A DNA stretch of 23,095 bases, taken from Prevotellaceae bacterium UBA2852 (GTDB lineage Bacteria > Bacteroidota > Bacteroidia > Bacteroidales > Bacteroidaceae). Below the pieces are notes generated by a model. It saw nothing but the letters and a program-made list of their open reading frames with translations. It was not told where the DNA came from and ran no database searches. A program made the translations under genes and the position numbers. Positions 5,112 to 23,006 of the stretch are shown one piece after another (positions within the stretch are counted from its first letter, which is position 1; each line of letters opens with the position of its first letter). The stretch spans positions 1 to 23,095 of the forward strand of contig DEFM01000010.1 in assembly GCA_002350855.1 (NCBI GenBank), read 5' to 3'.

Positions 5112-5239
5112 TTAGGAGGCGTGGCGGGAACTGTTGGTGTAAAGGAAGAGTCTTTCCCTCCCATCTAAAGAGATCTCAGCCTTTTAATTCTTCAATCTTT
5201 TCATCAGGAATTTCACGATATGCTCAGGTATGGTCGATA

Positions 5240-5265
5240 CATCCGAACCGCAAGCGGCTCGGATG
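5240..5265 (-). terminator. Hairpin after the GH3 gene
   Basis: catccgaaccgc / gcggctcggatg forms a 12-bp stem with one non-Watson-Crick pair and a 2-nt loop. It starts 8 nt beyond the GH3 stop codon. There is no clear U-tract on the minus strand, so it may be a weak terminator or a 3'-end stabiliser. Confidence 0.5.
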
Positions 5266-21018: not shown

Positions 21019-21336
21019 ATGATAGTTGTCAACCGATGGCTGCCAGTGCGAGGATTCAGCGCAATCAATCTGTTCGGGATAATCTTTGTGCGCAAAGGCG
21101 TTGCAATCACCCCCGTCCTCCTAAGGCACGAACATATCCACACGCGTCAGCAGCGGGAATTGCTCTGGCTGGGATTCTACCTCTGGTACATTCTCGAATA
21201 CCTATACAATATTATAATATACAGAAACCGTTGGAAGGCTTACCGCAACATCCGCTTCGAACGCGAAGCCTATGCACATGAAGCCACACCAGACTATCTC
21301 GAACACCGGAAAGCCTACGCTTTTCTAAGGGGTTAA
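21019..21336 (+). CDS. Small membrane-associated HExxH protein, putative mini-metallopeptidase
   Basis: 105 aa. It carries HEHIHTRQQ with His37, Glu38 and His41 in HExxH, followed by a hydrophobic segment (about 48-67, LLWLGFYLWYILEYLYNIII). A second conserved-looking block, IRFEREAYAHE (78-88), has Glu81 or Glu83 as a possible third zinc ligand in gluzincin style. The tail is PDYLEHRKAYAFLRG. Homologues of this pattern, as I recall, are widespread in Bacteroidetes and unnamed. The HExxH-then-QQ arrangement resembles DUF4157-type peptidases. No activity is established. A second frame starting at 21012 is a shadow. It is followed 14 nt later by repeat element E1 and then the kinases. Confidence 0.8.
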   Translation: MIVVNRWLPVRGFSAINLFGIIFVRKGVAITPVLLRHEHIHTRQQRELLWLGFYLWYILEYLYNIIIYRNRWKAYRNIRFEREAYAHEATPDYLEHRKAYAFLRG

Positions 21337-21349
21337 AAGCACCAGCCTA

Positions 21350-21555
21350 ACAAGCCCCCCAGTCAGTCCACCTTCCCTTCGGTCACCAATCGCTTGAACG
21401 CGAACGCGCGATTGCCCTGCGAGGGAGGGGAGTGGTTACAATCCATCCGGATGGAGAACTTAAACTTATTAAACCATTAAACTCATAATCCCTTAACCCG
21501 CAGTAGGTAATTACTCCCCTCCCTTGGGAGGGGCAAGGGGAGGGTCTTTTTCATT
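21350..21555 (+). repeat. Palindromic repeat element E1
   Basis: About 206 bp filling the gap between the HExxH gene and the first kinase ATG. The left arm begins acaagccccc and ends catccgga (21444-21451). It contains the 34-bp module at 21383-21416. An AT-rich centre follows, then the right arm (21497-21536: cccgcagtaggtaattac, then a cccctccc-tt-gggagggg hairpin). Finally agggtctttttcattatgca (21541-21560) runs into the start codon. The same architecture recurs at E2. Confidence 0.85.
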
Positions 21556-22170
21556 ATGCACATAGGAATAGCAGGAAATATTGGTAGCGGAAAGACCACT
21601 CTGACACAGATGCTGGCTAAGCATTACGGGTGGACGCCTTTCTTTGAAGCAGTGGACGACAATCCATATATCGAAGACTATTACTCCGATATCAAGCGAT
21701 GGTCGTTCTGCCTTGAGGTGTTCTTCCTCAAGCACCGCTTCCAGGACCTGCTCAAGATATCCAATTCCCAGCAGACCTTCATTCAGGACCGCACCATCTT
21801 CGAGGGTGTGTACGTGTTCACCGAGAACAACCGTCGCATGGGTAACCTCTCCGACCGTGACTTCCAGACCTACATGGATCTCTTTGAATCCATGATGATG
21901 GTAGCGCGCATGCCCGACCTCATGATTTACCTCCGTGCCAGTGTCCCACACCTCGTCGGCAACATCCAGAAACGTGGACGTGAGTATGAACAGTGCATGA
22001 AACTTGAATATCTCGAAAACCTTAATAACCTTTACGAGGAATTCATATACAAGAAGTACAAGGGACGAGTCCTTACCATCGATGTCGATAATCTCGACTA
22101 CGAACACCGTCCTGAAGACTTTGCATCAATAATCAATCGTATCGACTCCCTCCTCTTCGGATTGTTCTAA
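21556..22170 (+). CDS. Deoxynucleoside kinase (dAK/dGK type), copy 1
   Basis: 204 aa. P-loop GNIGSGKTT (7-15), the DRT variant of the ERS motif in IQDRTIFE (76-83) with Asp78-Arg79, the conserved SDRDFQTY segment (99-106), and the Arg-rich LID KRGREYEQ (139-146). This is the deoxyribonucleoside kinase family that phosphorylates deoxyadenosine or deoxyguanosine (also deoxycytidine in some members) for dNTP salvage. The next gene is a same-length paralogue. Tandem dAK/dGK genes whose products pair as heterodimers are known in lactobacilli, so a heterodimer is plausible here. The gene is bounded on both sides by related repeat elements, and a 34-bp inverted repeat lies outside each end. Confidence 0.92.
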   Translation: MHIGIAGNIGSGKTTLTQMLAKHYGWTPFFEAVDDNPYIEDYYSDIKRWSFCLEVFFLKHRFQDLLKISNSQQTFIQDRTIFEGVYVFTENNRRMGNLSDRDFQTYMDLFESMMMVARMPDLMIYLRASVPHLVGNIQKRGREYEQCMKLEYLENLNNLYEEFIYKKYKGRVLTIDVDNLDYEHRPEDFASIINRIDSLLFGLF

Positions 22171-22179
22171 AGAAGACCC

Positions 22180-22391
22180 ACAAGCCCCCTCCCGACCTCC
22201 CCCGTATAGGGGAGGAGTACCATCCGGAAGAGAGGAATTCAACTATTAAGCAATTATATTTCTTAAACTTTTAAACTATAGCCCCCGCAGTAGGTAATTA
22301 CTCCCCTCCCTTGGGAGGGGCAATCGCGCGTTCGCGTTCAAGCGATTGGTGAAGCGAAGCGGAAGGTGGACGGGGAAGGGTCTTTTTCATT
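22180..22391 (+). repeat. Palindromic repeat element E2
   Basis: About 212 bp filling the gap between the two kinases. It has the same ends as E1: acaagccccc (22180-22189) and catccgga (22221-22228) on the left, an AT-rich centre, then cccgcagtaggtaattac... (22284-22323, identical over 40 nt to 21497-21536), and agggtctttttcattatgca leading into the ATG. The 34-bp module is in its right arm (22319-22352), in the opposite orientation to E1. Confidence 0.85.
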
Positions 22392-23006
22392 ATGCATATA
22401 GCAGTAGCAGGAAATATCGGATGTGGCAAGACCACACTTACACGAATGTTGGCAAACCGTTACGGATGGGAGCCACGTTTTGAACCAGTAGACAACAATC
22501 CCTATCTGGCAGACTTCTATGCCGACATGAACCGTTGGGCGTACAATCTTCAGATTTACTTCCTTAACAAGCGTTTTAAGGAAGTGGTAGAGATAGCGCA
22601 GACCGATAAGGTCATTATCCAGGACCGCACTATCTTTGAGGATGCACGTATCTTTGCCAAGAACCTTCACAACCAGGGCATGATGTCAGACCGCGACTTC
22701 CAGACCTATGAGGAACTCTTCGACCTCATGCTCTCGCTTGTCAAACTTCCCGATCTCATGATTTATATCCGTTCGTCCATCCCCACACTCGTGGCGCAGA
22801 TCCAGAAACGCGGACGTGAGTACGAACAGACCATCCGCATCGACTACCTCAAGGGACTCAGCGACCTCTACGAGTCATGGATAGAGACCTACAAGGGTCC
22901 CCTCATCATTGTCGACGGCGACAACATCAAGTTCGGAGAGAATCCCGAACACTTCCAGCAAGTCACCGACATGATTGACGCCAAACTCTTCGGTCTCTTC
23001 TCGTAA
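22392..23006 (+). CDS. Deoxynucleoside kinase (dAK/dGK type), copy 2
   Basis: 204 aa, colinear with copy 1 without gaps. P-loop GNIGCGKTT (7-15, Cys in place of Ser11), IQDRTIFE (76-83), SDRDFQTY (99-106) and LID KRGREYEQ (139-146). Substrate-pocket regions differ clearly (for example RWAYNLQIYFLNKRF against RWSFCLEVFFLKHRF at 48-62). That fits different base preferences, such as deoxyadenosine versus deoxyguanosine, but does not say which is which. It shares the 5' leader (GGGTCTTTTTCATT then ATG) with copy 1 through element E2. No feature is seen in the last 89 bases of the window. Confidence 0.92.
   Translation: MHIAVAGNIGCGKTTLTRMLANRYGWEPRFEPVDNNPYLADFYADMNRWAYNLQIYFLNKRFKEVVEIAQTDKVIIQDRTIFEDARIFAKNLHNQGMMSDRDFQTYEELFDLMLSLVKLPDLMIYIRSSIPTLVAQIQKRGREYEQTIRIDYLKGLSDLYESWIETYKGPLIIVDGDNIKFGENPEHFQQVTDMIDAKLFGLFS

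Follow-up and report, generated by a model that had tools for sequence, protein, structure and literature searches.

Two palindromic elements beside a deoxynucleoside kinase gene pair, probable members of a mosaic repeat family dispersed in Prevotella-like Bacteroidaceae

The tandem deoxynucleoside kinase pair (Pfam dNK) at the end of the stretch analysed here (the window, 23,095 nucleotides of Prevotellaceae bacterium UBA2852) is accompanied by two palindromic elements, E1 and E2, which are very probably two extragenic copies of a dispersed, mosaic family of palindromic repeats of Prevotella-like Bacteroidaceae, occurring as doublets in the manner of REPINs and BIMEs; copy number was counted in relatives, and the window itself shows two copies. 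An earlier examination of the sequence without database searches (the sequence-only reading) had suggested a REP/BIME- or MITE-like family, and this is borne out in related genomes, where copies are scattered by the tens both within unrelated genes and close to them; the copy search was made in those relatives rather than in the genome of the window. The outcome that it had named as speaking against a repeat family, no trace at the kinase loci of relatives together with no further copies in the genome, is not what the relatives show.

As had been noted, an element fills the gap 5' of each kinase ATG, and the ATG of kinase 1 (21556) directly follows E1 (Table 1; the module names REP-A, REP-B and REP-C are labels coined in this analysis). 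Three further observations of the sequence-only reading were reproduced: a 40 nt identity (21497–21536 = 22284–22323), a last 20 nt common to both elements and including the ATG (AGGGTCTTTTTCATTATGCA; 95.7% over 23 nt by BLAST) and inverted arms in E1 (21422–21439 with 21507–21524, 89% complementary). The core 20-mer occurs twice in the window and in none of 100 shuffles. The description of E1 and E2 as two like elements holds for these shared blocks but not in the sense of colinear copies, since a direct BLAST match of 77% over 105 columns is accompanied by an inverted match (21366–21439 with 22371–22294, 87% over 78 columns). The latter includes a perfect 35 nt inverted repeat (21383–21417 / 22318–22352, REP-C), which had been overlooked, as had the distinct unit (REP-B) that serves as the left arm of E2. 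Modules are mixed between the elements, with REP-C lying in opposite arms and in opposite orientations in E1 and E2. E1 is thus a mosaic of an inverted REP-A cut by REP-C, an AT-rich centre and REP-A, and E2 a mosaic of REP-B, an AT-rich centre and a REP-A fused to REP-C. A profile built from a relative matched only the right-hand units of the two elements (43.0 and 29.6 bits) and neither left arm; the left arms were assigned from inverted repeats, BLAST and dispersed matches in other genomes.

Table 1. Coordinates of the kinase genes, the two elements and their modules in the window
Feature	Coordinates	Strand	Evidence
E1, composite palindromic element before kinase 1	21350..21555	+	sequence, repeat search, BLAST
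REP-C module (inverted), E1 left arm	21383..21417	-	perfect inverted repeat with 22318-22352; near-copies in other genomes
Truncated inverted REP-A arm of E1	21418..21439	-	inverted repeat with 21507-21524; below the profile's 20 bits
E1 AT-rich centre	21440..21506	.	sequence
REP-A unit of E1 (hairpin + G-rich tail)	21507..21546	+	profile 43.0 bits; dispersed copies
Deoxynucleoside kinase 1	21556..22170	+	Pfam dNK, E 1.3e-52
E2, composite palindromic element between the kinases	22171..22391	+	sequence, repeat search, BLAST
REP-B arm of E2	22182..22218	+	dispersed matches to query positions about 12-48, several genomes
E2 AT-rich centre	22219..22293	.	sequence
REP-A unit of E2, fused to REP-C	22294..22323	+	profile 29.6 bits
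REP-C module, E2 right arm	22318..22352	+	inverted repeat with E1; nine matches in G005, one in G004
E2 right tail, ends GGGTCTTTTTCATT before ATG	22353..22391	+	sequence
Deoxynucleoside kinase 2	22392..23006	+	Pfam dNK, E 3.8e-57

The kinases have indeed diverged further than the element blocks they accompany (72% over a 272 nt block starting at 21537, and in a protein alignment also made), and this divergence is explained by the presence of the tandem pair in all 80 relatives fetched. The earlier suggestion that the repeats are being homogenised or have moved recently is compatible with the data. Kinase translation starting within the elements was rejected, as in-frame stops at 21508–21510 and 22350–22352 leave 15 and 13 codons. 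Upstream of E1 lies a 105-aa ORF (21019–21336) without a Pfam match.

The main unit of the family is about 45 nt in length, close to GTAACTACTCCCCTCCCTnCAnGGGAGGGGCAAGGGGGnGGGTC, and comprises a hairpin and a G-rich tail. E2 had matches in 10 of 16 related genomes, and the E1 unit matched at least 43 times in G001 (the nearest genome searched), at least 50 times in G005 and at least 21 times in G033, these being lower bounds based on scoring 40 of the 63, 62 and 55 first-look candidates respectively. A tight hairpin pattern (CCCCTCCC-N2..8-GGGAGGGG) was present in 20 of 101 genomes of the family Bacteroidaceae, at least 10 copies being found in 12 of these, compared to one of 101 for the same pattern run backwards. 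The relatives thus hold a short palindrome in tens or more dispersed copies, as REPs do. Spread across the phylum was rejected, a stricter pattern matching G001 and, among 147 further genomes from the phylum, only 4 (1–2 matches each). A phage or plasmid origin was also rejected: one phage and one plasmid record align to kinase 1 and not to the elements, and the exact 22-base core pattern had no hits in viral contigs. REP-C is rare; it occurs without the hairpin at three of the sites viewed (L088, L098 and L105), and its exact 16-mer in one of the 101 Bacteroidaceae genomes, a sample that does not include G005. We found no description of this family in the literature searched, which comprised open-licence papers.

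An iterated profile gave 77 hits at E 0.01 on 40 regions of G001, which cover the E1-unit matches and all but one of the E2 matches in that genome, with about nine strict hairpins lying outside. Neighbouring units less than 130 bp apart (20 bits) face outward in 40 of 41 cases from six genomes (18/18 in G001, 13/13 in G005, 3/3 in G036, 3/3 in G092, 2/2 in G070 and 1/2 in G105), the regions from genomes other than G001 having been picked around hits. The gaps between neighbours range from -5 to 120 nt and are mostly 14–82 nt. Paired inverted units of the kind seen in REPs and REPINs are therefore present in the family, those in the window having left arms recognised by inverted repeat and BLAST only. 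Inverted arms, a variable centre and dispersed copies would also be expected of a MITE derived from a DNA transposon, a reading we consider improbable: single units are common (31 single clusters compared to 13 paired in G001 at 30 bits), the modules recombine, and neither a parent element nor a target duplication came to light in the loci viewed. For target sites the kinase spacers of relatives were of no help, having diverged too far for a clean empty site to be visible.

The kinase locus itself was compared in relatives by means of a protein scan that confirmed 281 stretches, of which the best 80 were kept. Both kinases are present in all 80 of these best relatives, at a median distance of 50 bp (3 kb in one, L031), and in the nearest (L001) the spacer is 52 bp of unrelated sequence. 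The profile, run at E 0.01, detected no E-type unit in any of the 79 spacers searched and such units upstream of kinase 1 at one of 80 loci (L043, an inverted pair scoring 16.9 bits at best); at some loci the contig ended so close that fewer than 300 bp of upstream sequence were available. The elements do not belong to the conserved make-up of the kinase locus, and a conserved leader regulating dNTP salvage, which the sequence-only reading had offered as an alternative, is unsupported because of these counts. In L043 the 300 bp before kinase 1 contain an independent E-like inverted pair, ending just 5' of the ATG as E1 does. The spacers of L008 and L016 carry a different palindromic repeat (AGACCCCCACCCCCCTATGTTAGGGGG and similar) in several copies.

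That E1 and E2 might still act as regulatory leaders (attenuators or riboswitch-like RNAs) controlling the kinases is suggested by their position, each directly 5' of a kinase ATG with the last 20 nt in common, by the pair in L043, by one terminator-like site (21520–21540) and by predicted RNA folds somewhat better than those of shuffles. We regard it as highly improbable and rejected it as the main reading, given the orthologous loci, where E-type units are missing from 79/79 spacers and 79/80 upstream regions, and the lack of any Rfam match in the window at gathering score. Moreover, terminator-like sites are equally frequent in shuffles (mean 1.1), and the same units lie within and near many unrelated genes. 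The large hairpins that had been envisaged in the mRNA leaders are only modestly favoured over shuffles (z -1.98 and -2.37; 7 and 2 of 200 shuffles as good for E1 and E2 respectively). As to covariation, the stem is nearly invariant, with two-sided changes in 2 of 8 pairs (3 cells), and its score exceeded 500/500 shuffles and all slides, but relatedness alone can give such a score.

The doublet geometry brings to mind REPINs mobilised by a RAYT (Y1 transposase), here either lost or located in unassembled DNA, and Y1_Tnp matches do occur in 11 of the 16 genomes searched. However, G001 and G005, the richest in E2 matches among the 16, have none, and among 101 genomes Y1_Tnp is found in 5 of 12 with high copy number compared to 30 of 89 others (Fisher p 0.75); G070 has 43 hairpins and no Y1_Tnp match. 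E-type units occurred at 3 of the 12 Y1_Tnp loci fetched (from 21 matches), about 0.6–1.0 kb away, and no cognate Y1 transposase flanked by the E-type repeat was found in the genomes searched, which as drafts may lack genes. A RAYT thus seems unnecessary for the family, none being detected in G001 and G005 and Y1_Tnp presence not following copy number, and mobilisation by one is in our view unlikely. Palindromic repeats of a different sort border several Y1 transposase genes (L111–L122). Nor does the unit consensus (57 units chosen from 114) end in GTAG or CGTC; GTAG does lie just outside the unit in both E1 and E2, yet is not part of the consensus.

The intergenic location reported earlier holds for E1 and E2, while copies inside genes had not been foreseen. 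Using a naive ORF map (80 codons or more), 24 of the 44 G001 clusters at 30 bits lie wholly within an ORF, 12 extend over an ORF end and 8 are intergenic; as the regions surveyed are 91% ORF, genes hold fewer copies than chance would place in them, though copies there are still frequent. Fourteen of the 24 have at least 60 codons on both sides, and the corresponding counts for strict hairpins are 5/19 in G001, 7/24 in G005, 4/12 in G036, 4/12 in G092, 3/21 in G070 and 0/12 in G105. In 12 of the 24 in-ORF cases in G001 the profile hit has a length not divisible by three, indicating that the frame is kept by the whole insert and not by a fixed unit. Among 45 units located in open frames at least 200 codons long, all six frames are represented, most often sense frame 0 (20 units). 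In G001 a mean of 4.62 of the six frames are open compared to 4.10 after shuffling, more than in 200/200 shuffles, but no excess was seen in G005 (4.03 compared to 4.32), G036, G092 or G070. Six-frame openness as an adaptation was therefore rejected, being confined to G001 and weak evidence given that the units are mutually related.

Hosts scoring above the curated NCBIfam cut-off include PriA and MnmA (G001), TruA and a CobB-CobQ fusion (G005), and QueA and LeuC (G036), the copies in MnmA and LeuC being N-terminal, where a later start is possible. Clear matches below the cut-off in G001 identify a TonB-dependent receptor (with two inserts), a ribonuclease H-like protein and an alpha-glucosidase/xylosidase-like protein, and matches to solved structures identify RNase R and FeoB (G001), Mfd (G005) and Tex (G070). 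Predicted insert peptides, which would be translated as part of these proteins, include VTTPLPTREGQGGGS and RTHPLAPPYREGSGY. In L005 an 832-aa ORF located 3' of kinase 2 also contains an E-like palindrome pair, in frame (5220–5252).

In-frame coding palindromes have already been reported from Rickettsia and a few other genomes, and by analogy the family would work like the Rickettsia palindromic elements, the intragenic GTAG and CGTC REPs and REPINs, while carrying no GTAG or CGTC end tag and showing no RAYT association. Rickettsia palindromic elements, with 44 insertions in metabolic genes of R. conorii (PMC10969869), likewise occur in frame in unrelated genes, as copies of our family do in related genomes. 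They belong to another phylum, however, and measure about 150 bp, in contrast to about 45 nt and frequent outward doublets here, and many copies of our family, E1 and E2 included, are extragenic; the likeness is one of described features. Some GTAG and CGTC REPs lie in ORFs and encode 20–30 residues, dimers included (PMC3733652), and as short palindromes, single or dimeric, with DNA/RNA enzymes among their hosts they resemble the present family, which differs in its consensus without GTAG or CGTC end and in having no RAYT link. REPINs and BIMEs (PMC3116915, PMC2817692) share the paired, opposite palindromic units, the many copies and the mosaic structure, whereas our family is often intragenic and no RAYT was found for it. 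In Bacteroidetes, atypical hairpins flank TnpA genes (PMC6006769), and those of subclass 2.6 are likewise palindromes with dispersed copies; they differ in flanking a transposase gene, the Y1_Tnp loci seen here adjoining other repeats.

Taking E1 and E2 as members of a dispersed repeat family, we propose that the doublet is propagated at the DNA level, possibly as a hairpin, by means of an agent other than a resident RAYT. The element may be selfish or near neutral, with copies surviving where harm is small, namely in spacers, at the ends of genes and in the linkers and loops of proteins. Copies would have arrived in the leader and the spacer of the kinase locus, E1 and E2 may have exchanged or shared modules via local copying or recombination, and any effect on kinase expression would be incidental. 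A bolder proposal is that a RAYT-independent palindrome of the Bacteroidaceae, equally at home in and between genes, poor in stops in six frames and moved by an undescribed agent, supplies flexible linkers to housekeeping proteins. This we hold to be speculative and doubtful, the more so because only 12 of 24 in-ORF profile hits are multiples of three in length and openness exceeds shuffles in G001 only, which slightly lowered our initial estimate. An abundant Prevotella family would make RAYT-free palindrome movement testable in culturable anaerobes, and the same carriers could be used to determine whether insert peptides are merely tolerated or are useful parts of proteins. For annotators, inserts such as TTPLPTREGQGGGS in Prevotella proteins would be repeat-derived.

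Host by host, several comparisons are consistent with insertion. The element falls in a length gap relative to a solved chain or homolog in RNase R (aligned blocks end at 395 and resume at 460, compared to 378 and 399), Tex (455/535 compared to 402/417), TruA (163/205 compared to 168/183) and QueA (325/412 compared to 267/280), and the alignment of Mfd to its solved homolog also gaps at the element. A relative of the RNase R (P0122, 86% identical) is 29 residues shorter and lacks the element, although among the 28 of 120 listed relatives that were aligned the loop is variable and the exact site unsharp. In PriA a unit occupies the linker after the N-terminal part in G001 and G005 and is absent in G003 (71% identical). 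The FeoB pair occupies the linker that joins the FeoA-like domain to the G domain; its motif pattern recurs in 4 of 120 relatives listed, all at least 97% identical, and looks degraded in a relative at 83%. Neither an empty site at strain level nor a target duplication was observed, the Tex pair being kept in 120/120 relatives listed (93–97% identical), from a search that returns intact proteins of similar length only. Between fixed anchors the Tex stretch varies from 76 to 93 residues, in 39 variants. In the TonB-receptor ORFs L189 (G005) and L126 (G001) the units occupy much the same site, following INIVT, which could reflect either an old insertion or a hot spot. The Tex (L210) and QueA (L214) ORFs each show a second length gap relative to their solved homologs, away from the element.
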